In this document: positions 36,857-57,548 of the stretch, piece by piece
Layout of the letters: every line of letters starts with the position of its first letter
Position numbering within the stretch: position 1 is the stretch's first letter
Notes under the pieces: generated by a model
Databases searched by the model: none
What the model saw: only the letters and a program-made list of their open reading frames with translations
Told to the model about the DNA's origin: nothing
Made by a program: the position numbers and the translations under genes
Assembly (NCBI RefSeq): GCF_963678195.1
Contig: NZ_OY782759.1
Span: 1,612,001 to 1,676,000, forward strand
Direction: 5' to 3'
DNA: 64,000 nt
Source of the DNA: an uncultured Hyphomonas sp.
GTDB taxonomy: Bacteria > Pseudomonadota > Alphaproteobacteria > Caulobacterales > Hyphomonadaceae

Positions 36857-36869
36857 CTAATAGTGTTAG
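36857..36869 (+). promoter_or_regulatory. CTA-N7-TAG operator, site 1
   Basis: CTAATAGTGTTAG, preceded by AAAAAA and followed by ATA, ends 25 bases before the first Rieske oxygenase gene. The half-sites are CTAA and TTAG. It is one of nine copies in module E. Confidence 0.7.
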
Positions 36870-36894
36870 ATATCTTTGAAATGGGAGATGCCTA

Positions 36895-38094
36895 ATGCCA
36901 GACACCGATACTCTTGACCGTCTACGCCCGCGCTATGGGTTGTCTCTGTTGGATCTAAATGAAAGCCAGATTGATGCAATCCACCGTATTCCGGCACATG
37001 GTGAAGCGGTTGCTCCGAAACTGCAGGCTCGACGGCCTGCCTCGATCTTCCTGAGTCAGGAGCGCTACGACCTTGAACAGGATCGAATCTTTCGGAATGA
37101 GCCCGTCGTTCTCGCTCCGTCCGCTGCTATTCCTGACAATGGCTCGCTCCTGGGGCTGGACGGTTACGGTGTTCCAGTCCTGTTGACGCGGGATAAACAA
37201 GGAGAGGTGAGGGCGTTCCTGAATGTCTGCACCCACAAAGGGGCCTTGTTGCATGAAGGCTGCGGGGCTCGCAAAGCAGGATCGGTCACGTGTCCTTATC
37301 ACGCCTGGACATTCGGGCTGGATGGCGCTCTGCGGGGCGTGCCGCGCGAAGACACATATGAGAATTTCAGCAAGTCAGAGCGTCCGCTCACTTCACTTCC
37401 ATGCAAGGAAATTGGTGGGCTGATTTGGGGTATTCTCGATCCTGCTTCGGGCGCCGGCTTCAACTCGGTTGATGAACAAATAGCCAAGGATTTCGAGTGT
37501 CTCGGTCTCCCCACAGCCTACCAGTATGGTTACCGTCGGTTCGACCTTGAGGCCAACTGGAAACTGGTGATGGAACCCTTCCTGGAGGGTTACCACGTGC
37601 AGCGCCTGCATGCGAAATCCATCGGTCCGCAGGGGTTGGATATGTTTGAAGATGTCGTCGGGGTCCAGGAGCGGTTCGGCCGTCATATCCGGCAGACCAA
37701 TGGGCGGGGTAATTTCACGCCAGATGTGCTGCAGAAATCGGGTACAAATATCCGGAAATTTATCACCCACGCCTACAATGTCTTTCCGAATACGGTTGTC
37801 ATCACCAGCCCGTATTATACGAGTGTCATGATCATCATGCCGACATCCGCCAGCACATCGTCGGTTGACTACTACATGCTCACCGATGACGCTCCCGATA
37901 ATGCGAAGGCAGAAGAACTCTACGCCAAGTCCTTTGAAGTGATCCAGGACGTGTTCGGCAATGAAGACTTCAAGGCCTCAGAAACCTGCCAGACCGGACT
38001 TGCTTCCGGGGCCATCCCGGATGTGATCTATTGCGGAATGGAAGCGGCAATTCCAATGTTCTATGAGGGCATCGAGCGCGTCCTGGAGCTCTGA
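36895..38094 (+). CDS. Rieske non-heme iron oxygenase, alpha subunit (1)
   Basis: A 399-residue ring-hydroxylating-type oxygenase. The Rieske cluster ligands are Cys112-Thr-His114 and Cys133-Pro-Tyr-His136. The mononuclear iron histidines are His234 and His239 in FLEGYHVQRLHA. Such enzymes hydroxylate or demethylate aromatic, alicyclic or quaternary-amine substrates. No beta subunit is adjacent, so an alpha-only trimer is likely, and no dedicated reductase is present; the ferredoxin at 57613 may serve. It is paralogous to the gene at 40724 (very roughly half identical), with an operator just upstream and a terminator after it. Confidence 0.92.
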   Translation: MPDTDTLDRLRPRYGLSLLDLNESQIDAIHRIPAHGEAVAPKLQARRPASIFLSQERYDLEQDRIFRNEPVVLAPSAAIPDNGSLLGLDGYGVPVLLTRDKQGEVRAFLNVCTHKGALLHEGCGARKAGSVTCPYHAWTFGLDGALRGVPREDTYENFSKSERPLTSLPCKEIGGLIWGILDPASGAGFNSVDEQIAKDFECLGLPTAYQYGYRRFDLEANWKLVMEPFLEGYHVQRLHAKSIGPQGLDMFEDVVGVQERFGRHIRQTNGRGNFTPDVLQKSGTNIRKFITHAYNVFPNTVVITSPYYTSVMIIMPTSASTSSVDYYMLTDDAPDNAKAEELYAKSFEVIQDVFGNEDFKASETCQTGLASGAIPDVIYCGMEAAIPMFYEGIERVLEL

Positions 38095-38128
38095 GGGCCG
38101 CGGTTCGATACAGTTCATAGAAATGGTC

Positions 38129-38160
38129 AACAGGCATCGCGACATCGCGATGCCTGTTTG
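38129..38160 (+). terminator. Rho-independent terminator after Rieske oxygenase 1
   Basis: A perfect 13-bp stem (38129-38141 with 38146-38158), with loop ACAT, is followed by a T-rich stretch. It ends the single-gene Rieske transcript. Confidence 0.85.
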
Positions 38161-38239: not shown

Positions 38240-38252
38240 CTAATACGAATAG
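38240..38252 (+). promoter_or_regulatory. CTA-N7-TAG operator, site 2
   Basis: CTAATACGAATAG ends 23 bases before the sulfatase ATG. It lies between a TTGACA (38226-38231) and a TAGATT (38250-38255) spaced 18 bases apart, which read as -35 and -10 boxes. A protein bound here would block the promoter. Confidence 0.7.
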
Positions 38253-38275
38253 ATTGGCGGAGAGGGAGAAATTAC

Positions 38276-40576
38276 ATGGCATTAAATTCGGGATGGACGG
38301 CTTACATTTGCGGGGTCTGCATGATCGTTGTGACCGCGATTGGGTGCGGACGTAGTGTCGCGCAGACAGATCAACCCCCAGAATTTTTCAGCGAAGCAGA
38401 TCCTTATGAAATTGAAGACGTCAGACCGGCGTCATCTTCACCCAATGTAATTGTCTGGGTCGTGGATGATCTCGGCTTTGGCCAGGTTGGAGCGTTTGGG
38501 GGGGTAATCGAAACACCAACTCTGGATGCGCTCGCCGCAAGCGGGCTCATCTACACCAATTATCACACGACACCGATCTGCTCGGCCAGCCGAGCAGCGC
38601 TTCTGACAGGCCGTAACTCGCACAATGTGGGAATCGGCGGTCATTCTGCGATGTCGATCGGCTTTCCCGGCTATGATGCGCGTGTTCCGCAAGGTGCGGG
38701 CACGGTGGCTGCAAATCTGAAATCAGCGGGCTACCTGACGTACGCCATCGGCAAATGGGATCACTTGCCACCGGAACACAGCTCCAAAGCAGGCCCGTTC
38801 ACATATTGGCCAAGTGGGCAGGGGTTTGACCGCTTTTATGGGTTCCTGACCTATGATGCCGACAATTTTTCGCCCGTGCTCTGGTCTGATCATACACCTG
38901 TCGAACTGCCCGATGATCCGGATTACCACCTATCGGCCGACATGGCGGACAAGGCGATAGAGTGGATTGGTTCAAGGGACTCAGAGCCGGATCTGCGACC
39001 TTTCTTCATGTATTGGGCTACCGGTGCTGTGCATTCCCCGCACCAGGCCCCTGAAGCTGACCGCCTGTATTACCGGGGAAAGTTTGATGCAGGTTGGGAT
39101 GTCATCCGTCAGCAGATCCTGGATAACCAGATCGCGCGAGGTGTCGTTTCAGCCGGAACCGTACTTCCGCCCCGTCCGGACGGAATGCCTGCCTGGGACA
39201 GTCTCGATGAGGCGCAGAAGAAGAGTTATGCGAGGGCGATGGAGGTCTTTGCAGCGCAGCTCACCCATGCCGACCGGGAGTTCGGCCGTATCCTGGAGTC
39301 GCTTCGGGTAAGGGGTGAACTCGACAACACGCTGATCATGGTCGTGGCCGACAATGGCGCCAGCGCCGAGGGAGCCCCAGACGGGCTCTTCAGCGAGTTT
39401 ATGATGGCGAATGGCCGATATCCAGATGTGAGTGAAAATCTCGAGCACTATGAGGATTGGGGCGGACCCAACACCTACCCGCACTATCCCATGGGGTGGG
39501 CCGTCGCGGGGAACACGCCGTTCCAGTATTACAAGCAGACTGCCTATGAGGGCGCTGTGCATGTTCCGATGATCGTGTCCTGGCCGGCGGGAATTGCTCC
39601 CAGCGGGGAGACCCGGCCACAATACATACATGCGATTGATCTCGCCTCGACGATCTTCGAGAGCGCTGGTATTGAACCACCAGCTGAGATCAATGGCACA
39701 GATCAGATGGCATTCGATGGGCAAAGCATGGCCTACACTTTCAGCTCTGCGGATGCGCCGTCCAAGCGCACTGTTCAGTATTACGAAATGTACGGGAACA
39801 GGGCGATCTATGCAGATGGCTGGAAGGCGGTTGTGCCTCACAGGCTAAGGACATGGGATTTTACAACACCGCCGTCATTCGAAGATGACACCTGGCAATT
39901 GTACGACTTGTCCGTGGATATCAATGAGCGACATGATCTGTCTGCAGAGCATCCTGAAAAGTTAAACGAACTTATCGACAAGTTCCGGGAAGAAGCCATC
40001 AGATACAAGGTTTTCCCGCTCACTAATACGGGAGATGCCCAGCGCCTCCGTGCGAGTGTGGCCGCAGAGAAAATGGCCTCGCACGACGATCTCTGGCGCT
40101 ACGCAGGGCCGGTATCGAGAATTCCTGAAGCACTGGCTCCACCGATACAGACCCATTCATTCACCTTGTCGGCATCATTGGACCTTAGCGCTGACAGGAC
40201 GGGCGCGATCATGGCGCTTGGAGGACGTAATGGGGGGATGTCGCTCTTCGTCGTGGACGGGACACTCAAATTCCTCTTTCGCAATATCGATCTGACCGAA
40301 ACACTTCTGGTGGCGTCCGGCCCGCTTGCGGCGAGCGAGCAATCGATACAGCTTGAATTCCAGCGTGGGCCAGATGGGGCTGACGTTCGTATTTCGGCAG
40401 ATGGCGAGACCATTGCGGAAGGCAAGGTGCCGGGGCCTCTGCCTGTCTTCCTGTTCACTTCCAATGAGACATTCGATATCGGCACCGATACCGGGTCGCC
40501 GGTTTCGGCTGAGCTGCGCGACGACCGCCAATGTTCAGATTGTATCAAATCGGTGAGCATTGTCGTCGTCCCCTGA
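38276..40576 (+). CDS. Arylsulfatase-family sulfatase, exported
   Basis: A 766-residue type I sulfatase that should remove sulfate from an ester. The N-terminus has a signal peptide with a possible lipobox (VVTAIGC). The formylglycine motif is Cys102 in TTPICSASRAALLTGR; the third position is Ala, where CxPxR is usual, a known variant. Metal-site residues lie in VVDDLGFGQ and VADNGASAEG. A C-terminal beta-jelly-roll-like domain covers about residues 630-766. It has its own promoter/operator and belongs to the module E regulon, so the natural substrate is probably a sulfated molecule. Confidence 0.9.
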   Translation: MALNSGWTAYICGVCMIVVTAIGCGRSVAQTDQPPEFFSEADPYEIEDVRPASSSPNVIVWVVDDLGFGQVGAFGGVIETPTLDALAASGLIYTNYHTTPICSASRAALLTGRNSHNVGIGGHSAMSIGFPGYDARVPQGAGTVAANLKSAGYLTYAIGKWDHLPPEHSSKAGPFTYWPSGQGFDRFYGFLTYDADNFSPVLWSDHTPVELPDDPDYHLSADMADKAIEWIGSRDSEPDLRPFFMYWATGAVHSPHQAPEADRLYYRGKFDAGWDVIRQQILDNQIARGVVSAGTVLPPRPDGMPAWDSLDEAQKKSYARAMEVFAAQLTHADREFGRILESLRVRGELDNTLIMVVADNGASAEGAPDGLFSEFMMANGRYPDVSENLEHYEDWGGPNTYPHYPMGWAVAGNTPFQYYKQTAYEGAVHVPMIVSWPAGIAPSGETRPQYIHAIDLASTIFESAGIEPPAEINGTDQMAFDGQSMAYTFSSADAPSKRTVQYYEMYGNRAIYADGWKAVVPHRLRTWDFTTPPSFEDDTWQLYDLSVDINERHDLSAEHPEKLNELIDKFREEAIRYKVFPLTNTGDAQRLRASVAAEKMASHDDLWRYAGPVSRIPEALAPPIQTHSFTLSASLDLSADRTGAIMALGGRNGGMSLFVVDGTLKFLFRNIDLTETLLVASGPLAASEQSIQLEFQRGPDGADVRISADGETIAEGKVPGPLPVFLFTSNETFDIGTDTGSPVSAELRDDRQCSDCIKSVSIVVVP

Positions 40577-40665: not shown

Positions 40666-40678
40666 CTAACGGCAATAG
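40666..40678 (+). promoter_or_regulatory. CTA-N7-TAG operator, site 3
   Basis: CTAACGGCAATAG, preceded by AAAAA and followed by ATA, ends 45 bases before the second Rieske oxygenase gene. A TTGACA is at 40639-40644. Confidence 0.65.
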
Positions 40679-40723: not shown

Positions 40724-41935
40724 ATGAACCTTATCGACACGCAGGCGAATGACCTGGCGGGGAGTGGTGCGCCAGGCAAAACCGGGCTTAAGCGAATCCA
40801 GACCCTCCACGATCTCAGCGAAAGCCAAGTCTCTGCCATTCGCAAAATTCCGCCACACGACCAGGCAAAGCCGAAGGCGATCGAGGCTTCAAGGCCGGTC
40901 TCGAATTTCCTCAGCCAGGAACATTTCGATCTTGAGCAGGAAAAGATTTTTCGGCGTTTTGCTGTTCCGGTGACGGTCTCGGCGCTGCTGCCAAAGCCCG
41001 GCAGTGCGCTGGCCCATGAAGGCTATGGCGTACCGCTGCTGCTGACCCGAGACAAGGAGGGCAAAGTCCACGCCTTTCTGAATGCCTGCATGCACAAAGG
41101 GGCGAAGCTGATCGAGGACTGTGAGCCCCATAAGTCAAACAAGTTGACCTGCCCCTACCATGCCTGGACATTCGCCTTGGATGGCCGCTTGGTTGGTGTC
41201 CCCCGCGAAGAAACGCTGAAGAATTTCGACAAGTCCCGCCGAGGTTTGGCAGAACTCGCTTGCCGCGAAGAGGGGGGGGTGATCTGGGTTATGCTGGACC
41301 GAAATGCAGAGCCGGACTTCTCAAATCTTGATGCGCAACTTGCTGCTGACTTTGAGGCTTTCGACATTCCACGCATGCATGTCTATGGCCGCAAGACTTT
41401 TGAACTGAAAGCAAACTGGAAGCTTGTGCAGGAGCCTTTCCTGGAAGGCTACCATGTCCAACGCCTCCACGCCCAATCGGTGGGGCCGATGTTTGCCGAT
41501 GTGCCCAATGTTACGGACGTCCTTGGTCTGAACATAAGGCAGATTTCCGGCAAGGTTGCCTTTACCCCGGACTGTCTCGACATCGAGGGAGAGAATATCC
41601 ACAAGTCTGTGACGCATGCCTACCTGGTGTTTCCCAACACCGTGATCGTCACCAGTCCTTATTATATCAGCGTGATGTTCATCATGCCGAAGGGGCCTGG
41701 AAAGACGGTTGTGGACTATCTGATGCTTACGCGGAGCGCTCCGGATAACGACAAGGCGAAAGAGCTTTATCAGCGTTCTTACGAGATGGTCTTGGGTGTC
41801 TTTGGCGGCGAGGATTTCCGGGCGGCCGAGATTTCCCAGACCGGTCTCGAAAGCGGTGCACTGGAAGATCTTGTCTATTGCGGTCTCGAAGAGACGATCC
41901 CGCTCTACTACGAGATTCTCGAACGTTACCTGTAG
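40724..41935 (+). CDS. Rieske non-heme iron oxygenase, alpha subunit (2)
   Basis: A 403-residue paralogue of the enzyme at 36895. The Rieske ligands are Cys122-Met-His124 and Cys143-Pro-Tyr-His146; the iron histidines are His244 and His249 in the same FLEGYHVQRLHA block. Differences cluster in the C-terminal substrate domain. The two may oxidise successive intermediates, or related substrates, of one pathway. It has its own operator, and no beta subunit or reductase gene is adjacent. Confidence 0.92.
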   Translation: MNLIDTQANDLAGSGAPGKTGLKRIQTLHDLSESQVSAIRKIPPHDQAKPKAIEASRPVSNFLSQEHFDLEQEKIFRRFAVPVTVSALLPKPGSALAHEGYGVPLLLTRDKEGKVHAFLNACMHKGAKLIEDCEPHKSNKLTCPYHAWTFALDGRLVGVPREETLKNFDKSRRGLAELACREEGGVIWVMLDRNAEPDFSNLDAQLAADFEAFDIPRMHVYGRKTFELKANWKLVQEPFLEGYHVQRLHAQSVGPMFADVPNVTDVLGLNIRQISGKVAFTPDCLDIEGENIHKSVTHAYLVFPNTVIVTSPYYISVMFIMPKGPGKTVVDYLMLTRSAPDNDKAKELYQRSYEMVLGVFGGEDFRAAEISQTGLESGALEDLVYCGLEETIPLYYEILERYL

Positions 41936-42008: not shown

Positions 42009-42021
42009 CTATTATCAATAG
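42009..42021 (+). promoter_or_regulatory. CTA-N7-TAG operator, site 4
   Basis: CTATTATCAATAG, preceded by AAAA, ends 45 bases before the CoA ligase start at 42067. The half-sites are CTATT and AATAG, a perfect five-base inverted repeat. Confidence 0.65.
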
Positions 42022-42066: not shown

Positions 42067-43563
42067 ATGCAAACAATCAGCAGCGCCCTGAATTGGTGGG
42101 CCGAAGACACGCCGGACCTGATGGCTATGGCGTTTGGTGCAGACCGCGTCACTTACCGCCAGTTGCGAGATTGGTCGGAACGCGTTGCTGCGAGCTTGAT
42201 CGATGCGGGGGTGGAACGTGGTGATCGGGTCGGAGTTTGTGCGGCCAATTCCATGGAATATTGTGTCCTCATCCACGGCATCCTCCGTGCCGGTGCGATC
42301 GTTTCGCCGCTGAACATGCGTTATACGCGCCACGAGCTTGTCGAACTCCTTGAGGATACGACGCCGCGCATCGTATTTGCAGACGAGGCGCGGCGCGCCT
42401 TGTTCGAGGGAATGGATTATGAACTCAGAGCTCTTGAAGATGTACGTCGGCATTCTTCCGGCGACAGGATATGTCCGGAGCGAGCCCCTATGCCGGATGA
42501 CCCGGTCGTAATCATTGCCACGAGCGGATCGACAGCAAAGCCTAAAGGAGTTGTGTTCACAAATCGTACAATGACGTCTTATGCGTCCGGCTGGGCATTG
42601 GAAATGCCGCACTGTACCAAGGGGTCGAAAATTATTGTTCCGGCGCCGCTCAGCACATCGGCCGGTTTCGTCCAGTTGATCCACTACACGACACTTGGCT
42701 GCTCGCTCTATTTCGAGACTGTCTTTGATCCTCAGGTGTTCCTGGACATTTTGGTCCGGGAGCAAATCAATGGATTTGGCGGCGTTCCTCTGTTCTTCCA
42801 ACGTATTGCGGACCTGCCGGGATTCGCGGAGGCAGATCTGTCCTCGATCCGCGTTGCGACAACGGGCGGTGCGCCTGTAACGCATGCCTTGCAGGAAAAG
42901 TGGATGGCGAAAGGAATTGTCCTTCAGCAGATTTATGGACAGACCGAATGCGGCGGCAATGCCACGGTCATGCCTCGAGACCTCGCGGCGAAATATCCCG
43001 AAAAATGCGGGCGCGGCGGCATCTTCACAGAACTCGCCATTGCAGACAGTGAAGGCAATTTCCTGCCACCCGGAGAGATCGGCCAGATTCTGATGCGCGG
43101 TCCCGGAACGATGATCGGCTATTGGAACAATCCGGAGGCGACGGCTGAAACGCTTAAGGATGGCTGGCTGCATTCCGGCGATCTCGGCGTCCTGGATGAG
43201 CAGGGGCTTCTGACATTTGTGGACCGGATGAAAGACATCATTATTTCCGGAGGACTCAACATTTCGGCCGCAGAAGTCGAGCGAGCGGTCCTGGCTTATC
43301 CCGGTGTCGAGGAGGTCATGGTGATTGCAGCGAAAGACAAGAAATTCGGCGAAACGCCGATGGCCGTGCTGTATGCGCGGAGCGACATCGATGTTGCTGC
43401 CCTGGTCGCACATTGTAACGACTGGCTCGCCGATTACAAAGTGCCCCGCTATGTCGCAATCGAACGCGAGCCAATGCCAAGAACCGCCACCGGCAAGCTA
43501 GCGAAACCCATGATGCGGGAAAAATACAAGGACGCAGCCGACAGCCTGCCGCGGGTCAGGTAG
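42067..43563 (+). CDS. Acyl-CoA ligase (AMP-forming)
   Basis: A 498-residue adenylate-forming ligase. Motifs: P-loop ATSGSTAKPKGVVFTN (about residue 155), QIYGQTECGGNATV (A5), GWLHSGDLGVLDEQG (A7), VDRMKDIIISGGLNISAAEV (A8) and the catalytic lysine in RTATGKLAKPM. The P-loop has STAKPKG, where the family usually has TTGxPKG. It starts at ATG 42067 after GGAGGAG. It probably primes the module E carboxylic acid for CoA-dependent breakdown. Confidence 0.92.
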   Translation: MQTISSALNWWAEDTPDLMAMAFGADRVTYRQLRDWSERVAASLIDAGVERGDRVGVCAANSMEYCVLIHGILRAGAIVSPLNMRYTRHELVELLEDTTPRIVFADEARRALFEGMDYELRALEDVRRHSSGDRICPERAPMPDDPVVIIATSGSTAKPKGVVFTNRTMTSYASGWALEMPHCTKGSKIIVPAPLSTSAGFVQLIHYTTLGCSLYFETVFDPQVFLDILVREQINGFGGVPLFFQRIADLPGFAEADLSSIRVATTGGAPVTHALQEKWMAKGIVLQQIYGQTECGGNATVMPRDLAAKYPEKCGRGGIFTELAIADSEGNFLPPGEIGQILMRGPGTMIGYWNNPEATAETLKDGWLHSGDLGVLDEQGLLTFVDRMKDIIISGGLNISAAEVERAVLAYPGVEEVMVIAAKDKKFGETPMAVLYARSDIDVAALVAHCNDWLADYKVPRYVAIEREPMPRTATGKLAKPMMREKYKDAADSLPRVR

Positions 43564-43569
43564 ACGGCA

Positions 43570-44445
43570 TCAATCCGGACCTGTCCGCATTGGGAGGTCT
43601 GGATCGGCCGCCCATTCTTCTAGTGAACCATCATAGACCCGGACATCGTTCAAGCCGGAAAGTTCCAGTGCGAAGGCTGCCTGGGTCGCGGCGATTCCAC
43701 CCCCGCAATATGTGATCACGGGCGCGTGGCTCAGGTCTTCGACTATTCTGGCAATGTCTGCCGGCACCCGGAATGTGCCATCCGGGTGCATGAAGAGGTC
43801 CGTGGGCCGGTTATAAGCGCCTGCAATATGTCCGAGCCTTCCATAGCCAAACAGGTCGCCTGCCTCGCCGCGGTAATATTCAGGTGAAAGGACGTCCAGG
43901 ACCCGTACGGGGCTTCCCGGCATGATCGCCTGGAGGACAGTTTCCTTCAGGGCGATCCGGCTGGCGTCGATTCGAGGGGTAAATTTGGCCGGCAAGGGCG
44001 CAGTGATGGCGGACGTCACCGGTCGGTTTTCTGACGTCCACTTTCCAAGCCCACCATCAAGGACAGATACCCGTTCGAAACCGTGATAGCGCAGCAGCCA
44101 CCAGACCCGTGTTGCCCACCAGACACCTGTCGCAGAATAGACAACTACATGAGTGTCATCGCCCACGCCAAGGCTCTCCATGGCGGTGGCAAACCGCTCC
44201 GGTGACGGAATGGTGAATCGGGCTTTACCCGACCGATCCGACAGCGCGTGCAGGACGTCGGCGAATTGCGCGCCGGGTATATGTTCCTCAAGGTAGGTGT
44301 CCTTGCCGGATCGAGCGTCGCTTTTGCCGTCTGGGCGGCGGGTGATATGGACCGTCGCATCCAGTATGCGAAGCTCTGGATCGTCCAGGTGGGCCGCAAG
44401 CCAGTCCGTACTCACGAGCATTGGGGGAGCAGACCCAGTCATCAT
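43570..44445 (-). CDS. Two-domain sulfurtransferase (rhodanese / 3-mercaptopyruvate type)
   Basis: A 291-residue tandem rhodanese protein. The first, inactive domain holds DATVHITRRPDG and LDGGLGKW. The second carries the active-site Cys247 in TYCGGGIAAT. It could move sulfur from thiosulfate or mercaptopyruvate to cyanide or thiols. Its ATG overlaps the end of the GMC oxidoreductase gene, so it is second in that operon. Why a sulfurtransferase belongs here is unclear; handling reduced sulfur is one idea, but the sulfatase releases sulfate, which does not need it. Confidence 0.88.
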   Translation of the reverse strand: MMTGSAPPMLVSTDWLAAHLDDPELRILDATVHITRRPDGKSDARSGKDTYLEEHIPGAQFADVLHALSDRSGKARFTIPSPERFATAMESLGVGDDTHVVVYSATGVWWATRVWWLLRYHGFERVSVLDGGLGKWTSENRPVTSAITAPLPAKFTPRIDASRIALKETVLQAIMPGSPVRVLDVLSPEYYRGEAGDLFGYGRLGHIAGAYNRPTDLFMHPDGTFRVPADIARIVEDLSHAPVITYCGGGIAATQAAFALELSGLNDVRVYDGSLEEWAADPDLPMRTGPD

Positions 44446-46105: not shown

Positions 46106-46118
46106 CTATTTGGCATAG
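46106..46118 (-). promoter_or_regulatory. CTA-N7-TAG operator, site 5
   Basis: Plus-strand CTATTTGGCATAG (AAAA before, ATT after) lies 47 bases upstream of the TTG start of the minus-strand GMC gene. It shares the 223-base divergent gap with site 6. Confidence 0.6.
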
Positions 46119-49058: not shown

Positions 49059-49244
49059 TGGATGCCGGCACGCCTGCCGCGCGCAGTCCTCCCTGGCGAT
49101 GGCAGGCGGGGGCCGGTCCGGAGACGGGCCGGCCCAGCCTGACCTGGTGGCCATGGGCATCGCAGCCCAGCGAATTACTTGAAAGCAAACTAGGTTTTTC
49201 CGGTGCTTCCGCACGGAATGAATGTACATAAAAGGGAGACGAGC

Positions 49245-50678
49245 ATGACTGATTTCAATTCAGATTACCGGATGCTCATCAATGGTGAGCTGGTTTCTGC
49301 CCAGGAGGCGCTCGACGTTGTGAACCCGGCGACGGGAAAAGCTTTTGCGAGCACGCCGAGGGCTTCTGAAGCAGACCTCGATTTGGCTGTGACCGCGGCG
49401 TCGAATGCATTCGAGACATGGAAAGACGTGCCTGTTGAAGAACGCAAGGCCCTGTTGCGCAAGGCAGGCGATATCGTCATGGCCCATGCCGACCAGCTCG
49501 CCAGCCTCTTTACAAAAGAGCAGGGACGGCCTGTCCATCTCGCCAGGGAAGAGGTCCTTGGTGCGGGGTTCTGGTTCCACGCAACCGCCGATCTCGATCT
49601 TCCGGTGGATGTAACAGAAGATACGGATGTGCGCCGCATTGAGGTCCATCACGTTCCTCTGGGCGTCGTTTGCGGTATTGTGCCTTGGAACTTTCCGATG
49701 CTGCTTGCGAGCTGGAAGATTGCGCCGGCGCTGCTCACTGGCAATACGGTTGTGGTCAAGCCCTCTCCTTATACACCGCTCTGCACACTGAAGCTCGGTG
49801 AGTTGCTGCAGGAAGTATTCCCGCCGGGCGTACTCAATGTGATTTCTGGTGGGGATGAGTTGGGTCCGTGGATGACAGCGCACAAAGGGTTTGCGAAGAT
49901 CTCGTTCACGGGGTCGACGGCGACTGGAAAACGGGTCATGGAGTCGGCTGCACGTGACCTGAAGCGCGTCACACTAGAGCTCGGAGGCAATGATGCTGCG
50001 ATTGTGCTGGGCGATGTCGATCCGGCGAAAGTGGCGGAGCCTCTGTTCTCGGGCGCCTTTTCGAACACGGCGCAAATCTGCGTGGCAACGAAGCGACTTT
50101 ATGTGCATGACGACATTTATGATGAGGTCCGTGACCGGATCGTGTCGTTGGTAAAGTCTGCCTCTGTTGGCGATGGAAGCGAGCAGGGGATCCAATTCGG
50201 GCCGGTCCAGAACAAGGCACAGTATGAGCGGGTTGTGGACCTCCTGCAAAGTGCTCGCGATGCGGGCCTGACACTTCATCAGGCGGATCCGGTCGAAAGC
50301 GATGGCTATTTCATCCCGTTCACAATTGTGGACAATCCGCCCGAAGACGCCCGTGTCGTCAAGGAGGAGGCATTCGGCCCGGTCCTGCCAATGATGCGGT
50401 TCAGTGATATCGACGATGTCGTGAAACGGGCGAATGACTCTGAATACGGATTGGCCGGTGCAGTCTGGTCGTCCGATATCGGAAAAGCAGTAGAAGTCGC
50501 TTCACGCCTTGAAACCGGGACGGTGTGGATCAATCAGAACCTTCAATCGACACCGAGGACACCGCTGTCTGGTCACAAGCATTCCGGGGTTGGCGTCGAG
50601 AACGGGATTTATGGTCTGATGGAGTTCACCCAGCCCAAAGCCATATATATTCCGAAGTCTGCTGGGGACGTTATTTAG
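49245..50678 (+). CDS. NAD(P)-dependent aldehyde dehydrogenase
   Basis: A 477-residue ALDH that oxidises an aldehyde to its acid. The start at 49245 follows AAAAGGGAG; an earlier in-frame start at 49203 lacks a site. Motifs: GIVPWNFPMLLASWK, FTGSTATGKRVM, ELGGNDAAIV (general-base Glu) and the nucleophile in NTAQICVATKR. The 186-base gap before it holds no convincing gene. It probably handles an aldehyde released by the P450/aldolase chemistry. Its end overlaps the convergent tetR gene by 8 bases. Confidence 0.92.
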   Translation: MTDFNSDYRMLINGELVSAQEALDVVNPATGKAFASTPRASEADLDLAVTAASNAFETWKDVPVEERKALLRKAGDIVMAHADQLASLFTKEQGRPVHLAREEVLGAGFWFHATADLDLPVDVTEDTDVRRIEVHHVPLGVVCGIVPWNFPMLLASWKIAPALLTGNTVVVKPSPYTPLCTLKLGELLQEVFPPGVLNVISGGDELGPWMTAHKGFAKISFTGSTATGKRVMESAARDLKRVTLELGGNDAAIVLGDVDPAKVAEPLFSGAFSNTAQICVATKRLYVHDDIYDEVRDRIVSLVKSASVGDGSEQGIQFGPVQNKAQYERVVDLLQSARDAGLTLHQADPVESDGYFIPFTIVDNPPEDARVVKEEAFGPVLPMMRFSDIDDVVKRANDSEYGLAGAVWSSDIGKAVEVASRLETGTVWINQNLQSTPRTPLSGHKHSGVGVENGIYGLMEFTQPKAIYIPKSAGDVI

Positions 50679-51318
50679 AGCGTTGGCTGCGGGCAGGGGA
50701 AGTTGCTTCCTCAGCCTCCGCCGTGGCGCGGACCCCGCTCAAGAGCATTTTCAGTGTGGCGATAAAGAGATTTTCATCGTCATGGCTGTTCGCCCGCACA
50801 GCCTTGGCGAGGGCGGGAAACTGCTTGGGATCAAAATCTGGCATGGGGGTCACCGCATGCGCCCTTGCCGCGGCTGCAAACAAGGCCGAACCGAAAGTAA
50901 GTTTTTCACTGGCTTCGAGAATCGGCAGCAAGAGAGAGTCGGGGTAGGGGCACTGGCCTGTCCAGTAGTCATAAGCCTTCAGGAAGATCTGGCGGGGGAA
51001 GTATTCCAGCAGCAGGGGCGCTGCATTCGGATGAAGCAGGATGGTTCGGCGTGTTTCGACACAGAGGCTGATCAGGGTCTCCTCCCAGCGGTCCGGGTCG
51101 ACGAATGGTGCCTTGACGTCGCGCAGGATCTTTAGAGCCACTTCCGCCAGAAGTTCGTTCTTGTCCTTGAAATGGTAGTAGAGCGACGGAGCCTTTACGC
51201 CGAGCTGTCGCGCCACCAGGGCGAGGCTGAGGGAATCCAATCCCTGAGTGTCGATGACGTCGAGGGCTGCACGAGCGGCGCGCTCACGGGAAATCAAAGG
51301 CTTGTCGGGGCGTCCCAA
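50671..51318 (-). CDS. TetR-family regulator, candidate repressor of the module E regulon
   Basis: A 215-residue TetR protein. The helix-turn-helix covers about residues 12-58 (LALVARQLGVKAPSLYYHFK). The start codon appears to be TTG at 51318 with a weak ribosome site. It is the only regulator between 36.9 and 57.9 kb, and two of the nine CTA-N7-TAG elements lie in the divergent gap between it and the TonB receptor. Control of the regulon by this protein is inference, but strong. Confidence 0.87.
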   Translation of the reverse strand: MGRPDKPLISRERAARAALDVIDTQGLDSLSLALVARQLGVKAPSLYYHFKDKNELLAEVALKILRDVKAPFVDPDRWEETLISLCVETRRTILLHPNAAPLLLEYFPRQIFLKAYDYWTGQCPYPDSLLLPILEASEKLTFGSALFAAAARAHAVTPMPDFDPKQFPALAKAVRANSHDDENLFIATLKMLLSGVRATAEAEEATSPARSQRSK

Positions 51319-51483: not shown

Positions 51484-51496
51484 CTAAGAATGTTAG
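51484..51496. promoter_or_regulatory. CTA-N7-TAG operator, site 7
   Basis: CTAAGAATGTTAG (AAA before, GCA after) lies 165 bases upstream of the tetR start. It could serve autoregulation or act with site 8 (centres 132 bp apart). Confidence 0.65.
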
Positions 51497-51615
51497 GCAT
51501 TTTTACGTGCGCAAGTTCACCGCGTAGTTGACGGAATGAGGGCGCAATTATTTTCATTAGTGACAGCTAGTTGGGCAGTTGACGTGTCCTACGTATTTCT
51601 CCTAATCTCCAAAAC

Positions 51616-51628
51616 TAATGATGTTAGG
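51616..51628 (+). promoter_or_regulatory. CTA-N7-TAG operator, site 8
   Basis: CTAATGATGTTAG (AAAA before, GCT after) ends 35 bases before the TonB receptor ATG. Confidence 0.7.
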
Positions 51629-51663: not shown

Positions 51664-54156
51664 ATGTCATTGGATTGGTCTGCCCCGCTTTGCCGGGACA
51701 AGAAGCGGACACTCGTCCGGTCGCTGATGTTTGGTGCATCCGGTTTTGCCCTGATCGCCACCGCAAATCCTGCATTTGCGGAAGAAGAAATCACGGATGG
51801 GGCGAGTGAGGCCACCACAGCACCGGAGATGTCGGCCGAAGAGCAGGAGCGTCTTCGCCGCCTGGGGATTGTCACCGTCACGGCTCGCCGCAAGGAAGAA
51901 AGCCTGAAAGACGCGCCGGTCGCGATCACCGCCCTCTCGGGCGAAGCGCTCGACGATTATGCGGTCAATGATTTCGTTGACCTCTCCTCCCAAGTCCCAA
52001 CCATGATTGCCGGCCGTGCGGCCTCGGGTTCGTCGGCCAGCATCTTCCTGCGCGGGGTCGGATCGACGGCGCTCAGCGCCGGATTTGATCAGTCCGTGTC
52101 GTTCAATATCGATGGTTTGCCGATGAGCCGCGGCCGTGAAATCTCGATGCCGCAATATGACATTCAGCGGGTCGAAGTCCTTAAAGGCCCTCAGGCCCTG
52201 TTTTATGGCAAGAACACGACGGGTGGTCTCATCTCGGTTGTGTCCAATGATCCGACCGATACGTTCGAAGCATCCGGCAAGGTCGGGTATGGTTTCGAAG
52301 CCCAGGAGCGCTACGGTGAAGGTGTGATCTCCGGTCCGCTCACGGATACGCTGGGCGGACGCTTTGCCTTCCGGGTTTCCGACTACGACGGTGCGTTCGA
52401 TAACAGCGCGGCCGAAACCTATCTGGATCCACTTGGCATGGAGCGTCACCGCCTTGAAGAACACCGGGGCTTTGGCGAGACAGCCAGCGGCCGCCTGACC
52501 CTCGCTTTCGAGCCGTCAGACACGTTCAATCTGAAACTCAAGGTCGGTGCGAGCCAGCAGAAGGATGGCGGGCCGACCGACGTCCTTGAACGCATTTGCG
52601 GGGCAGGCCGAACCGTGCCGATGAGTGCCAATGGGGTTCCGCCAAGCCCGAATGCAGATTGCCGGGTCAATGGCGTTTCGGATTCTTCCAGCCTTCCGCG
52701 TCAGGTGGCTGAGGCGAACTATCGCTACGCCGGTAATGGTGACATGTATGCCGACTTCAGTTCGGCCTATTCGGTCCTGACCGGCAAGCTGAACCTTCCA
52801 GGCGTGGATGTGGAATCTATCACATCTTACTACCGCTTCATTCAGAAAGATCTGAACAATGTTTCGGGTGAAGCCTATCCAGCAAGCTTCTCTCAGAAAG
52901 CCGATTTCAATCAGTTCTCAGAGGAATTGCGGTTCACGACCACAAGTGATGGCCCCTTCAATTCCACCTTTGGTCTGTTTCTTTCCAAGTCGGAATTCGA
53001 GTTCAATACTGACGCCTACATTTTTATTGTTCCGATCGATCCGGCGACAGGTACCTACACATCGTTCAAACGCAACAACGGCTTCGACGGACAGACCGTC
53101 TCGCTGTTCTATGAAGGCAGTTATGCCTTTACCGATCAGTGGGAACTGTCTGCTGGTGCCCGCTGGAGCCGCGAGGAACGCGATTCCTACCAGGACTCGC
53201 TACCGGCATCTTCCTTCTTTGCTGCATTCTTCCCTGGCGGGATACATTTTGACGACAAATTTGAGGACGAGAATGTCTCGCCGCAGGTGACACTGCGATA
53301 CCGGCCTTCGTCCAACGTCTCCTACTATGCAGCGTACAAGGAAGGGTTCAAAGCGGGGGGGTATAACATCTCCCAGGCCATTACACCTGTCTCGACGGCA
53401 GAAGCTGGCAAGTACGGTTCGGAAACTGCGAAAGGCTTTGAGGCTGGTGTTCGGTCCGTTCTGTTTAATGATACGCTCAGCCTGAATGCCACAGTGTTCC
53501 ACTATCTCTATGAAGACCTGCAGGTGCAGGTGTTCGACCCGGCCTCAGTCAGCCTGATTGCAGACAATGCCGGTGAGCTGACGACGCAGGGGATCGAAAT
53601 CGATTTCAACTGGGTGCCGGATGCAGTTGAAGGGCTGAGTGTTCGCGGGGCGTTCGCCTACAATGATGTCGAATATGACAAGTTCATTGGGCAGTGTTTT
53701 AGCGGACAAACTATAGCACAGGGATGTAACCAGGACCTGGTTGGCGGTGTCTATCAGAGCCAGGTTTACTCTGGTCGGACGCCACCTAAAGCCCCCGAAA
53801 CCGCTGGACGGCTCGGCGCAACCTATGAGTTCCCGGTTGGCCAGTACAACGCGTCCCTGTCAGGCGATGTGAGCTATACTGGTGAGTATAACTTCACCGA
53901 TACGCTTCGCCCGGATGCGGTTCAGGATGCTTATACCAAGTTGGACCTCTCCGCGCGGGTAAGCTCACCTGATGACAGCTGGACCCTGTCTCTGATTGGA
54001 CGGAACCTGACGGAAGAGTTCGTTGTGACGAGTGCCAATGACATTCCGTTCACGGGGGGCACCGGGACCGGGACGAATACAGGTGTCGTTTCGGACATGT
54101 CAGCTTTCGTTGAAAATCCGCGTGAGGTTTATCTGGAGTTGGCGTTCAGATTCTGA
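51664..54156 (+). CDS. TonB-dependent outer-membrane receptor of module E
   Basis: An 830-residue receptor starting at an ATG after GGGAGGAAAAT. The signal region ends ANPAFAEE. The TonB box is IVTVTARRKE, the plug contains SIFLRGVGSTALSAGFDQS and VEVLKGPQALFYGKNTTGGL, and the C-terminus reads REVYLELAFRF. It carries an operator just upstream and is closed by a strong terminator, so it is a one-gene unit of the regulon, probably the outer-membrane entry for the sulfated or hydrophobic substrate. Confidence 0.93.
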   Translation: MSLDWSAPLCRDKKRTLVRSLMFGASGFALIATANPAFAEEEITDGASEATTAPEMSAEEQERLRRLGIVTVTARRKEESLKDAPVAITALSGEALDDYAVNDFVDLSSQVPTMIAGRAASGSSASIFLRGVGSTALSAGFDQSVSFNIDGLPMSRGREISMPQYDIQRVEVLKGPQALFYGKNTTGGLISVVSNDPTDTFEASGKVGYGFEAQERYGEGVISGPLTDTLGGRFAFRVSDYDGAFDNSAAETYLDPLGMERHRLEEHRGFGETASGRLTLAFEPSDTFNLKLKVGASQQKDGGPTDVLERICGAGRTVPMSANGVPPSPNADCRVNGVSDSSSLPRQVAEANYRYAGNGDMYADFSSAYSVLTGKLNLPGVDVESITSYYRFIQKDLNNVSGEAYPASFSQKADFNQFSEELRFTTTSDGPFNSTFGLFLSKSEFEFNTDAYIFIVPIDPATGTYTSFKRNNGFDGQTVSLFYEGSYAFTDQWELSAGARWSREERDSYQDSLPASSFFAAFFPGGIHFDDKFEDENVSPQVTLRYRPSSNVSYYAAYKEGFKAGGYNISQAITPVSTAEAGKYGSETAKGFEAGVRSVLFNDTLSLNATVFHYLYEDLQVQVFDPASVSLIADNAGELTTQGIEIDFNWVPDAVEGLSVRGAFAYNDVEYDKFIGQCFSGQTIAQGCNQDLVGGVYQSQVYSGRTPPKAPETAGRLGATYEFPVGQYNASLSGDVSYTGEYNFTDTLRPDAVQDAYTKLDLSARVSSPDDSWTLSLIGRNLTEEFVVTSANDIPFTGGTGTGTNTGVVSDMSAFVENPREVYLELAFRF

Positions 54157-54233: not shown

Positions 54234-55076
54234 ATGAAGACAATCCGTAGGACAATGAGTGATGGCGTCAGGATTGTGGGCGACCTTGCCGGGCCGGAGA
54301 AGGGGCCGGGCATCATTCTTGCCCATGGAGGCGGCCAGACCCGGTTTGCCTGGTCGGCGGCAGCGACCTCTCTCGCGGCTGCCGGATACAGGACGCTCAG
54401 CTATGATGCCCGGGGGCATGGTGATAGTGATTGGTCGCACGACAATCGCTATCCGATCGAGCGACGCTGGCAGGACATGGCGGAGATGATCACTGAAGTT
54501 TCAGTGCCCTTTGCCATTGTCGGGGCTTCGATGGGCGCAGGTTCAGTGCTCTACGGACTTCGACAGGGCGCGCGGCCAGCGGCTGTGGTTCTGGTCGATA
54601 TGGTGCCGAACGCTGAACGAGCGGGAATGGAACGGGTGCGCACCTTCATGGCAGGCGGCAAAGGCGGATTCGGCTCACTGGATGAGGCCGCCGATGTGGT
54701 CGCAGCCTATAATCCGGACCGGCCGCGGCCAAAGGACAGTTCCGGTCTCCTGAAGAACCTGCGTCTCGGTTCCGACAACCGGTATTATTGGCACTGGGAT
54801 CCCGGCATGCTCGACCTCGACATCGACGCCGAACGAGCAATGCTTGGTACCACGATGGATGTTCTGAAGACGCTGCCGGATCTTCCCCTTCTGCTTGTCC
54901 GTGGCATGAGCAGCGATGTCGTTCCGGGGGCGGCAGCGGAAACGTTCCAGCGGGAGGTGCCGTGGGCAGAGGTTTGTGAAATCGGACAGGCGGGCCATAT
55001 GGTCGCCGGAGACCGAAATGATGTGTTCCAGGATGCCGTCATGGAATTCCTGGGCCGGCATCTTCCTGTGATCTAG
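54234..55076 (+). CDS. Alpha/beta hydrolase
   Basis: A 280-residue alpha/beta-hydrolase. The HGGG oxyanion segment is at residues 31-34, the nucleophile is Ser99 in GASMGAGS, and the acid and histidine are probably in RGMSSDVVPG and GQAGHMVAGDRND. It has no signal peptide, so it is cytoplasmic. It may open an ester, lactone or ring-cleavage product. It lies after the receptor's terminator without a recognised operator of its own, and its end overlaps the convergent acyl-CoA dehydrogenase by 4 bases. Confidence 0.88.
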   Translation: MKTIRRTMSDGVRIVGDLAGPEKGPGIILAHGGGQTRFAWSAAATSLAAAGYRTLSYDARGHGDSDWSHDNRYPIERRWQDMAEMITEVSVPFAIVGASMGAGSVLYGLRQGARPAAVVLVDMVPNAERAGMERVRTFMAGGKGGFGSLDEAADVVAAYNPDRPRPKDSSGLLKNLRLGSDNRYYWHWDPGMLDLDIDAERAMLGTTMDVLKTLPDLPLLLVRGMSSDVVPGAAAETFQREVPWAEVCEIGQAGHMVAGDRNDVFQDAVMEFLGRHLPVI

Positions 55077-56281
55077 AGCCCTAGTGCCTGCTTGGCCAGG
55101 ATGTTCCGTTGGATCTCATTCGAGCCGGCATAGATTGATCCTGCCCGGTCATTGAAGTACCTGGCGCTGACAGTGGTGAAATCTCCCGGCCCGACCAAAG
55201 GCGTTTCGGCCGGAGGGGCATTCAGTACAGGGCCGCCCGGACATGTATGGTGCGGCTGGAAGGGTAGGGCCCAGGTTCCGGCAACATCCAGGGTTAGTTC
55301 GGTTATCCGCTGGCTGAGTTCTGTTCCGAGAATTTTCATCATCGAAGCCTTGAGTCCAGGAGACCGGCCGTCGGAAAGCTCGGATACAAATTGTAATTCC
55401 GCTGCTTCGAGCGCTGCGCAGGATGTTTCAGTCTCAGACAGAGCGATATTTATTTCCAGGCCCGCATTGCCCATATCTGCCGCGATACGGCGGAGCTGCC
55501 GGATGCGCTGGAGTAGCCGGGGCGCATAGGACGATCCACCGCGTTCGAACTCGAGCAGGTACTTCGCAACGGTCCAGCCCTGGTTGAGCTCTCCGACGAT
55601 GTTTTCCTTTGGAACACGGACATCTGTGAAAAACAGCGTGTTCTGAATATGCTCACCTGATGTCATGATGATTGGATCAACGCGAACGCCTGGTGTGTCC
55701 ATGTCAATCAAGAGGAAGGTAATACCTTCCTGTCGCTTGCCGCTATTATCCGTTCGCACCAGACAGAAACATTTGTTTGCGACGTCGCCATGGGTCGTCC
55801 ATATTTTCTGTCCGTTGCAGATGAGGTCGTCACCATCTTCTGTGGCTGACATGGAAAGTGCAGCAAGGTCCGACCCTGCCTGGGGTTCGGAATAGCCCTG
55901 ACACCAGAAATCTTCACCCGAGAGAATGCGCGGCAGGTAATGTTCCTTCTGGGAGGGCGTTCCGTAACCAATAATGGCGGGGCCACACATTCCAATCCCC
56001 ATAGGGGATAGCGGCGGAGCACCAGCGCGTGCCAGCTCCAGGTCAAATATGTAGTGCTGCGCAACGGTCCAGTCGCAACCTCCAAACTCTACCGGCCATG
56101 ATGGGGCGGCCCAGCCTTGCTTGAGCAGGATGGCCTGCCAGGCGAGGTTGATCTCTTTTTCCGCATAAACGCTGGTCATACGGGCGGCATACGCCCGAAG
56201 GTCAGGGGTCAGATGATCAGCGAGAAAATCGCGGACCTCCTCGCGGAAAGCCAGTTCGGCGGATGAAAGTTCAAGCTGCAT
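55073..56281 (-). CDS. Acyl-CoA dehydrogenase
   Basis: A 402-residue FAD enzyme. The ATG at 56281 follows AAGGACC and gives the normal N-terminus (MQLELSSAELAFREEVR); an upstream frame extension lies inside the neighbour. Blocks: YSEPQAGSDLAAL, NGQKIWTTHGD and the C-terminal SIYAGSNEIQRNILAK. At the place where many members have the catalytic Glu (YEGT), this one has Ala, so the base is elsewhere or another subunit supplies it. It is second in the minus-strand operon after the CoA-transferase gene (22-base gap). Confidence 0.9.
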   Translation of the reverse strand: MQLELSSAELAFREEVRDFLADHLTPDLRAYAARMTSVYAEKEINLAWQAILLKQGWAAPSWPVEFGGCDWTVAQHYIFDLELARAGAPPLSPMGIGMCGPAIIGYGTPSQKEHYLPRILSGEDFWCQGYSEPQAGSDLAALSMSATEDGDDLICNGQKIWTTHGDVANKCFCLVRTDNSGKRQEGITFLLIDMDTPGVRVDPIIMTSGEHIQNTLFFTDVRVPKENIVGELNQGWTVAKYLLEFERGGSSYAPRLLQRIRQLRRIAADMGNAGLEINIALSETETSCAALEAAELQFVSELSDGRSPGLKASMMKILGTELSQRITELTLDVAGTWALPFQPHHTCPGGPVLNAPPAETPLVGPGDFTTVSARYFNDRAGSIYAGSNEIQRNILAKQALGL

Positions 56282-56303
56282 CGGTCGGTCCTTCTGGCTG
56301 TAA

Positions 56304-57503
56304 TCATTCCGGTGGGGCAATGTGGTTGGCAAGGCTTTCCCGTATTGTATCCCCATGCTCTCCGGTATGGGGTGCCGGTTCTGATGGTCCCGGTTGATAA
56401 CGTTCAAAGCGGATAGGGGAAGCTGTTTCGATCACGGTGCCTTCACTGGGATGCTCCCGGCGGCGAAAGAAACCGGTTGCCTGAAGATGCGGGTCGTCAA
56501 GGATCAGCGAAATGTCCCGGACAGCCATGCAGGGAATGCGGGCGGCGCGGAAACGTTCCAGCCAATCCTGGGTCGACCGGGCCGGGGTCAGCTCTGCGGT
56601 GCGTTGGTAGAGCTGGTCCTGGTTTCTGAACTGAAGCGCCGGCGTGTTCCGCTCCGGGTGTTGGAGAAAATCCGGATCGCCCAGTACATCGAAGACAATC
56701 GGCCAGGACGATGGTGTGTATGGCACAATGGATATGTAACCGTCGGCTGTCGGAAAGGGTTGCCTGTCGGGATCGATCTGTCTTGCGTAGCAGGCAGGAG
56801 CGTTCGGCGGATCAAATGTCAGGCCAGCCAGGTGTTCCACCAGCATGAACTGGGTAAATGCTTCGAACATGGGAACCTCGACGAACTGGCTTTCCCCGGT
56901 TCGGAGCTTGTGAATGTAAGCCGCCAGGGCAGCCTGTGCGCCGTGCAGTCCAGCCACCTTGTCGGCTATCAGGGAGGGGAGATAGCGGGCAGCGCCAGAA
57001 CCATCGACCTGTCCGGCGAGCGTTGCGGTTCCGGAAGCTGCCTGGATGACGTCATCATAGGCCTGAAGGTCGCCATAGGGGCCGTCTGAGCCGAAGCCTA
57101 CGCAGTGGATATAAATGATATTCGGATTGATCTTGCGGACGTCTTCCAATCCCAGGCCGAGTCTCTGGATCGCATCCTTACGAACATTGTGGATGAACAT
57201 ATCGCTGGTTGCGACGAGGTCTCGCATGGTCGCGGCATCTTCCGGTTCTTTCAGGTCGAGCGCAATTGACTGCTTTCCGGCATTCAGAGCGTGGTGCCCG
57301 GGGCTCATTCCGGGTGACTTCGCTGGCTTTCCCGAGAGCCGGAACGCGTCGCCCTCTGGCGGCTCCACTTTAATGACTTCAGCGCCGAGGTCGCTGAGAA
57401 TGCGGGTGGCGTAAGGACCAAAAACCACACTGGTCATGTCAAGCACCCGGACTCCCGACAGCATGGCATCCGGGTGATTGGGTGACGTTGTCGGTTGGGT
57501 CAT
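56304..57503 (-). CDS. CaiB/BaiF-family (type III) CoA-transferase
   Basis: A 399-residue family III CoA-transferase that would swap CoA between acids. The ATG at 57503 is used; an earlier in-frame start at 57614 would run through the operator. Family blocks are LDMTSVVFGPYATRILSDLG and AEVIKVEPPEGD, and the catalytic aspartate is Asp150 in QAYDDVIQAASG. It provides a way to form a CoA thioester without ATP, alongside the ligase at 42067. It is divergent from the ferredoxin gene, sharing operator site 9. Confidence 0.92.
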   Translation of the reverse strand: MTQPTTSPNHPDAMLSGVRVLDMTSVVFGPYATRILSDLGAEVIKVEPPEGDAFRLSGKPAKSPGMSPGHHALNAGKQSIALDLKEPEDAATMRDLVATSDMFIHNVRKDAIQRLGLGLEDVRKINPNIIYIHCVGFGSDGPYGDLQAYDDVIQAASGTATLAGQVDGSGAARYLPSLIADKVAGLHGAQAALAAYIHKLRTGESQFVEVPMFEAFTQFMLVEHLAGLTFDPPNAPACYARQIDPDRQPFPTADGYISIVPYTPSSWPIVFDVLGDPDFLQHPERNTPALQFRNQDQLYQRTAELTPARSTQDWLERFRAARIPCMAVRDISLILDDPHLQATGFFRRREHPSEGTVIETASPIRFERYQPGPSEPAPHTGEHGDTIRESLANHIAPPE

Positions 57504-57535
57504 GAAATCGGCCTTTACATGTCGGTGACCAAAAC

Positions 57536-57548
57536 CTAATAGCATTAG
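57536..57548. promoter_or_regulatory. CTA-N7-TAG operator, site 9
   Basis: CTAATAGCATTAG lies within the perfect arms CCTAAT / ATTAGG (57535-57549), preceded by AAAA and followed by GTA. It is 32 bases upstream of the CoA-transferase start and 64 bases upstream of the ferredoxin start, so it can serve both. Confidence 0.72.

Follow-up and report, generated by a model that had tools for sequence, protein, structure and literature searches.

Nine tetO-like elements in a Hyphomonas catabolic cluster are predicted operators of one TetR-family repressor

Here, we analyse a 64,000-nucleotide stretch of the genome of an uncultured Hyphomonas sp. (contig NZ_OY782759.1, positions 1,612,001 to 1,676,000; hereafter the window, whose own numbering is used unless a genome is named). 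Nine CTA-N7-TAG elements, all confirmed between 36857 and 57548, lie before the genes of a catabolic cluster, recur before the orthologous genes of related organisms, and go together with the gene for one TetR-family protein at 50671-51318. Comparison of sequences makes it highly probable that these elements are the operators of that protein, which would bind them as a repressor, rather than as an activator, and be released by a ligand. An initial annotation of the window had listed nine such sites and assigned them to one regulator, most likely this TetR. All nine are indeed present; site 8 starts at 51615 and not at 51616, and the other eight start where it placed them. The predicted operators are as follows, with scores from a matrix described below.

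Operator 1, 36857..36869, CTAATAGTGTTAG, 25 bp before the Rieske oxygenase gene RO1, score 27.7
Operator 2, 38240..38252, CTAATACGAATAG, 23 bp before the sulfatase gene, preceded by a TTGACA -35 at 38226-38231, score 18.9
Operator 3, 40666..40678, CTAACGGCAATAG, 45 bp before RO2, with TTGACA at 40639, score 28.6
Operator 4, 42009..42021, CTATTATCAATAG, 45 bp before the acyl-CoA ligase gene, score 24.4
Operator 5, 46106..46118, CTATTTGGCATAG, 47 bp before the GMC oxidoreductase gene (minus strand, TTG 46058), score 20.4
Operator 6, 46230..46242, CTAACGGTGATAG, 39 bp before the P450 operon, score 22.2
Operator 7, 51484..51496, CTAAGAATGTTAG, 165 bp from tetR, between it and the TonB receptor gene, kept in relative G040, score 24.7
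Operator 8, 51615..51627, CTAATGATGTTAG, 36 bp before the TonB-dependent receptor gene, with TTGAC at 51579, score 18.5
Operator 9, 57536..57548, CTAATAGCATTAG, common to CaiB (ATG 57503, minus strand, 32 bp) and ferredoxin (64 bp), with TTGAC on the minus strand at 57560-57556, score 25.2

The gaps from site to gene start agree with the initial annotation (25, 23, 45, 45, 47, 39 and 36 bp for seven genes, and 32/64 bp for the site at 57536). Its statement that every copy is intergenic depends on the starts chosen, since sites 46106 and 57536 lie within the longest mechanical open reading frames (ORFs) of GMC and CaiB, and for these two it fails if those frames are taken. CaiB alignments with relatives start at residues 37 to 50; GMC alignments start at residue 49 in two relatives (G022 and G071) and at 18 and 23 in two others (G046 and L064). 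The window offers a TTG at 46058 for GMC, after a GGGAGG box, and an ATG at 57503 for CaiB. With these relative-supported starts, all nine sites are intergenic.

The core takes the form CTAA-N5-TTAG at four sites, CTAA-N5-ATAG at three and CTAT-N5-ATAG at two, so that the earlier description "mostly CTAA-N5-TTAG" is true of four of the nine only. The extended palindrome is A-N-CTA(A/T)-N5-(A/T)TAG-N-T, with A/T-rich flanks. AAAA lies directly 5′ of seven sites, in line with "usually preceded by AAAA". In relatives the A/T tract falls on either side, often as TTTT opposite, which rules out the asymmetric AAAA as an orientation signal; its one-sidedness in the window is a local bias.

Among spacer lengths of 0-19 in the window, N7 alone is enriched, with 10 matches against 0-3 at every other length. 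Dinucleotide shuffles give a mean of 2.15 for CTA-N7-TAG; they are the fair control because TAG and CTA are rare in this genome, and base composition alone would predict about 10 per window by our own arithmetic. An A-flanked, strand-neutral pattern has 9 window matches versus 0.05 in shuffles, and covers eight of the nine, 46106 fitting it on both sides and 46230 being the one left out. The tenth CTA-N7-TAG of the window, at 61541, has neither A-tract nor A/T flank. In the whole genome (3,672,159 bases) the element occurs 44 times, 9 of them inside the 20.7-kb cluster, for which the 35 outside matches lead us to expect about 0.2 by chance. AAAACTA-N7-TAG occurs seven times in the genome, both strands together, and all seven are in the cluster. 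The shuffles, the spacer control and the whole-genome counts thus rule out a chance repeat.

At E <= 1e-20 the TetR is found in 6 of 105 genomes of the family (Hyphomonadaceae), the window's own included, with identities of 94% in G040, 69% in G022 and 57-62% in G046 (two copies), G048 and G071, all three from another genus. Named genomes provide two close matches, a Hyphomicrobiales metagenome-assembled genome (L064, 60%) and Henriciella aquimarina (L065); the latter is the same contig as one G046 contig and was left out of the counts. The window's own genome aside, a sample of 384 from the class (Alphaproteobacteria) contains none with the protein at E <= 1e-25. A plasmid origin was rejected, the sole plasmid match being 34.6% identical and located on a Mycobacterium plasmid.

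In these relatives, orthologues of window genes surround the TetR gene in varying order. Exact CTA-N7-TAG sites number 3 in the cluster of G040, 7 in G022, 2 and 5 on the two contigs of G046, 9 in G071, 3 in L064 and 0 in G048, where shuffle means are 0.17-0.72. The G040 count refers to part of a cluster, as its single 3.58-Mb contig ends inside the thiolase gene (L087) and the cluster is not resumed in the first 19.9 kb of that contig. With matches below 40% identity dropped, 26 of the 29 relatives' sites stand upstream of a window-gene orthologue, at a distance of no more than 320 bp. Two of the 26 also fall in the part of an overlong acyl-CoA dehydrogenase alignment that comes before residue 43. 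The three remaining sites, all in G071, precede an old-yellow-enzyme gene, a major facilitator superfamily (MFS) gene and a hydratase gene. In five of the six TetR-bearing family genomes (window's own included), the same sites stand before orthologous genes. Lack of conservation in relatives, which the initial annotation had named as telling against its proposal, is therefore not what we find. In several genomes, the regulator gene lies in the cluster and conserved sites lie at the promoters of its units, with G048 and the G071 receptor as exceptions.

To score sites independently of the window, we used a symmetric 25-bp matrix trained on 26 relatives' sites, with the window excluded and G040 excluded as too close. 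This matrix ranks the nine window sites 1 to 9, with scores from 28.6 to 18.5; the next-best score in the window is 11.5, and the highest in the reversed window is 11.3. The matrix scan that the initial annotation had proposed thus finds no equal-scoring match elsewhere in the window. Leave-one-genome-out tests recovered sites with one or two mismatches at places that lacked an exact one, namely before the receptor gene in G048 (21.6, one mismatch), GMC in G071 (17.1) and L064 (17.2), a hydratase in G046 (18.7, from a putative start), and tetR in G071 (14.8) and G046 (10.9).

The motif A-N-CTAW-N5-WTAG-N-T was also searched in the 105 family genomes. Among those bearing the TetR, the window genome has 6 matches, which are six of the nine sites, G022 has 6, G046 and G071 have 7 each, G040 has 1 and G048 has 0. 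The TetR is absent from 99 genomes, 95 of which have 0 to 3 matches; the remainder are G059 (6), G074 (11), G075 (16) and G084 (6). Among the matches listed, those of G059, G074 and G075 are far apart or on separate contigs. The genus scan for the A-prefixed form likewise gives 0 to 3 matches in genomes without the TetR, widely spaced or on different contigs. Beyond the regions read at first, the motif search in the family returned four prospective matches in G022, G046 and G071, three of them just upstream of cluster orthologues: RO2 and the CoA ligase on G046 contig 118, and a 75% identical RO1 orthologue in G071.

By sequence and predicted structure, the product of 50671..51318 (minus strand; 215 aa, TTG start; the proposed repressor) belongs to the TetR family, with a TetR_N helix-turn-helix and an all-helical C-terminal domain. 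Pfam assigns TetR_N (PF00440) at 4e-12, 46.2 bits against a cut-off of 24, and TetR_C_1 at 1.3e-5. Its nearest NCBIfam model is NF010319, tetracycline repressor TetR (2.2e-16), although at 60.3 bits it fails the equivalog cut-off of 265. The best sequence relatives in the PDB are Rha04620, ActR and, at 1.7e-11, TetR(D). The predicted model is helical (mean pLDDT 77.5), and its best Foldseek matches are TetR(D) and the TetR-operator complex 1qpi. The neighbours of tetR are the aldehyde dehydrogenase and TonB receptor genes, with no adjoining tetA efflux gene. The start codon of tetR is TTG in the window, G040 and G022 and ATG in the other five orthologues; a TTG start may keep repressor levels low.

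This kinship extends to the DNA. The CTA half-site and 7-base spacing of the sites equal those of tetO (CTATCAGTGATAG), and tetO2 is TCCCTATCAGTGATAGAGA, itself a CTA-N7-TAG sequence. Neither the tetO geometry of the sites nor the closeness of the protein to the tetracycline repressor proper had figured in the initial annotation. The sites do not follow the tetO form CTAT-N5-ATAG with a C/G pair at position 2; what is kept is CTA and the spacing. Published work on TetR describes hydrogen bonds from Arg28 and Gln38 to tetO bases +2 and +3, and van der Waals contacts only from Pro39, Thr40, Tyr42 and Trp43. In all eight orthologues Arg28 is replaced by Ala or Glu and Gln38 by Ala; the equivalents of Pro39, Leu41, Tyr42 and His44, and a Ser for Thr40, are invariant in all eight. 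In the matrix, where CTA is fixed by the search definition, position 2 is weak, position 3 is A (67%) or T (31%), and position 8 is A (84%). The loss of Arg28 and Gln38 would thus match relaxed operator positions 2 and 3. A parallel is provided by AmtR of Corynebacterium glutamicum, in which His replaces Arg28 and the matching base is not conserved. The AmtR spacing itself (CTA-N8-TAG) occurs 0 times in the window versus 10 for N7, so the sites are not operators of AmtR type.

For the promoters, 43 oriented sequences were aligned on the operator. These were hand-chosen and are not independent, as divergent ones were counted twice and G040 is close to the window. TTGAC occurs in the 40 bases upstream of the operator in 14 of the 43 (shuffle mean 1.5, maximum 7; reverse complement 1), at distances of 12-38 nt. 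Its position is -26 to -28 in every one of the five scored RO2 promoters and -35 to -38 in four of the five for the receptor; two ChsH2 promoters have it at -32, and the window sulfatase promoter and two CaiB promoters have it at -12 to -14. No fixed -10 position was seen in the 43. The initial annotation had placed site 2 between a -35 and a -10 box; the TTGACA -35 is clear, and no good -10 was seen. With an assumed 17-base spacer, the operator at each TTGAC-bearing promoter covers the spacer, the -10 or the start point, and steric repression is therefore favoured.

The mechanism that we propose is likely one of ligand-relieved repression, with the relief modelled on other members of the family. 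A dimer of the 50671-51318 protein would bind A-N-CTA(A/T)-N5-(A/T)TAG-N-T at the nine operators, situated at the promoters of every transcription unit of the cluster at 36857-57933, and block RNA polymerase. The pathway substrate or an intermediate would bind the C-terminal domain and release the protein, so that catabolism and TonB-dependent uptake would start jointly. An autoregulatory input to tetR could come from operator 7 and the receptor operator.

A number of observations weigh against assigning all of these sites to this one protein. The site counts in G040, L064 and the smaller G046 contig (contig 115) match but do not exceed the maximum of 200 shuffles, and in G071 spacers of other lengths occur up to 4 times. 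G048 has the TetR at 61-62% identity and no exact site; its cluster is a remnant, in which truncated and overlapping CaiB and aldehyde dehydrogenase matches lie beside the TetR, receptor and hydrolase genes (L094-L095). The G071 receptor orthologue (59%, L108) lacks a site, and the site before tetR is weak in G071 and in G046 contig 115. A G046 mismatch site scoring 20.3 falls where the aligned part of the GMC coding region begins. Other matches fit poorly: 12.6 inside the ferredoxin gene (G071), 15.3 further up (G048), 10.4 (G046), and a 15.1 site before a Fic-domain gene in G046. The fourth prospective match (G022, 14.7) stands 81 bp before a TonB receptor gene whose product is 26% like the window's. 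G084 has its six matches without the TetR, four of them on an A/T-rich contig (36-38% G+C). Genome-wide scores cover 10 of the 35 outside matches, those of the form CTAW-N5-WTAG; nine score at most 7.4, and one (position 1258186 of the genome) scores 14.9. Finally, in published work TetR carrying R28A does not bind tetO, so the 50671 protein must gain affinity elsewhere, perhaps from A/T at position 8.

Several of these matches deserve brief comment. The stretches around the G084 matches contain no relative of any window protein, and two of the four A/T-rich ones lie in a repeated segment; we take them as chance in A/T-rich DNA. The G022 match (L117 9662, G022:C14:228661) has CoA ligase and acyl-CoA dehydrogenase genes in its neighbourhood, and it is possible that this site is an extra member of the regulon. 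At G000:C1:1258186 and 1258898 (L098), elsewhere in the window genome, two CTAA-N5-TTAG palindromes lie 712 bp apart. A wider regulon was rejected, and the ten scored matches outside the cluster, 1258186 included, are not counted as members.

Could the sites belong to another DNA-binding protein, with the 50671 TetR a passenger? A second TetR gene (58203-58922, TetR_C_30) borders the cluster, G048 carries a TetR of the 50671 type without exact sites, and the case for binding by the 50671 protein is one of sequence comparison. Nevertheless, none of the relatives' regions compared contains a match to the 58203 protein at more than 40% identity. A Pfam scan of all 37 additional ORFs listed (at least 110 residues) from these regions likewise revealed no shared regulator besides the 50671 TetR orthologues; the extra regulator genes among them (LysR, PadR and another TetR) occur in G071 only, at the edges. 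In addition, the half-sites are of TetR/AmtR type, the 50671 protein is closely related to the tetracycline repressor, and this TetR and the site clusters co-occur. We therefore consider a different owner of the sites unlikely.

Activation or dual regulation by this TetR from the same sites, a mode of action of a minority of TetR proteins, seems to us even less probable. The distance from operator to TTGAC varies between promoters, from 12 to 38 nt, and 29 of the 43 promoters have no TTGAC; yet the TTGAC-bearing placements, on the assumed 17-base spacer, favour steric repression as described above, and the nearest named relatives of the protein are repressors. An origin as a mobile or structural repeat (a transposon end, or a methylation or recombination signal) might be read from the A-tract, which is on the same side of all nine window sites. 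We give this almost no credence, as the sites share no flanking sequence beyond A/T, track genes and not coordinates in relatives, vary at inner positions, and have an A-prefixed form that is absent from the rest of the genome. The proposal of one regulator, and the choice of the 50671-51318 TetR for that role, survive the computational tests, which comprise footprinting in relatives of differing gene order, the window-free matrix, the co-occurrence of TetR and site clusters, the three prospective matches in four, and the agreement of residue changes with base preference.

The genes under the predicted operators encode the following proteins.

36895..38094, plus, RO1, Rieske oxygenase alpha subunit
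38276..40576, plus, sulfatase, best PDB match arylsulfatase 1hdh
40724..41935, plus, RO2, Rieske oxygenase alpha subunit
42067..43563, plus, acyl-CoA ligase
43570..44445, minus, rhodanese, downstream of GMC and probably in the same operon
44442..46058, minus, GMC oxidoreductase, putative start TTG 46058
46282..47490, plus, cytochrome P450, CYP101-like (best match CYP101)
47494..47904, plus, ChsH2/DUF35-type partner protein
47892..49058, plus, thiolase-fold protein, best PDB match lipid-transfer protein 6ok1 (1.2e-55)
49203..50678, plus, aldehyde dehydrogenase
51664..54156, plus, TonB-dependent receptor
54234..55076, plus, alpha/beta hydrolase, downstream of the receptor
55073..56281, minus, acyl-CoA dehydrogenase, putative start near residue 43 of a long ORF, downstream of CaiB
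56304..57503, minus, CaiB-type CoA-transferase
57613..57933, plus, 2Fe-2S ferredoxin

Each putative transcription unit between 36895 and 57933 would carry an operator, on an operon structure that is itself predicted; the rhodanese, ChsH2, thiolase, aldehyde dehydrogenase, hydrolase and acyl-CoA dehydrogenase genes would be the downstream members of operator-led units. RO1 and RO2 resemble betaine/carnitine-monooxygenase-type proteins, and 6ok1 is presumably an Ltp2-type aldolase. Because a CYP101-like P450, an Ltp2/ChsH2-type pair and a sulfatase are present, our guess is that the substrate is perhaps a sulfated isoprenoid-like or sterol/steroid-like compound with a side chain. A sulfatase-modifying-factor (FGE) gene, which fits a sulfated substrate, lies a few kb from the G071 cluster (L092 7276-8322). 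The ferredoxin of the window cluster comes without a ferredoxin reductase; a Pyr_redox_2/Reductase_C reductase is found in the G022 and G046 clusters. Genes for an HMGL/DmpG-type aldolase and for a BphC-type extradiol dioxygenase, of the kind used to cleave aromatic or steroid rings, lie beside the G048 remnant. The second TetR gene (58203-58922), which borders the regulon, diverges from a TonB receptor gene at 58884-61553, where the best matrix score is 6.5, at 58200. Elsewhere in the window, genes for PhyH, a beta-lactamase-family hydrolase, peptidase S58 and an M81/MlrC-type metallopeptidase adjoin at 21933-27011, and genes for a TonB receptor and a TRAP transporter come next; we take this set to resemble the mlrB/mlrC part of microcystin-degradation clusters.

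Literature searches on TetR-family catabolic regulons and gene clusters, tetO-like operators, and TetR regulons of Hyphomonas and the Hyphomonadaceae revealed no such regulon. PheR (PMC13273656) was set aside as a precedent, being an IclR protein and not a TetR. We therefore regard the cluster as a well-supported new regulon of a known TetR kind, in which the tetO-type operators are the unusual point. It offers a testable unit in which one protein and an operator of 17-25 bp at nine promoter sites would control a defined set of genes, and the inducer of these genes would point to the pathway substrate. The operators travel with their genes through rearrangement, an illustration of how a catabolic cluster could be reshuffled without loss of control. 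More tentatively, and with rather less than even confidence, we suggest an undescribed pathway, possibly for a marine-algal sulfated isoprenoid or sterol-like compound, whose single-operator units reshuffle between genomes under one TetR-derived repressor that swapped the Arg28/Gln38 reading of tetO for A/T at position 8.

Among known systems, the cholesterol regulons of mycobacteria include P450, ligase and Ltp/ChsH2-type enzymes, and their operators differ from CTA-N7-TAG. Their regulators, KstR and KstR2, are repressors of TetR type that govern catabolic genes (PMC3068626). The likeness is one of controlled gene set, in a distant host group. AmtR is also a TetR-type protein with CTAT half-sites, a multi-gene regulon and a changed Arg28 equivalent. 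However, six bases separate its CTAT halves, five here; it keeps the Gln38 equivalent (Gln53); and it serves nitrogen control, whereas the present regulon is a substrate-specific catabolic cluster.

The closest likeness is to the Tn10-type TetR/tetO system, with which the window shares the CTA half-site, the N7 spacing, the best NCBIfam model, the best fold match, and two operators between a divergent regulator gene and a transport gene. It differs in that R28 and Q38 are replaced, the inner base pairs are not conserved, A/T appears at position 8, the 60.3 bits fall below the cut-off of 265, no tetA lies beside the regulator gene, and nine operators are spread over catabolic genes. The regulon thus provides a natural comparison with the best-studied repressor-operator pair, in which the CTA half-site and its spacing have been kept while both of the residues that hydrogen-bond to tetO have been lost.

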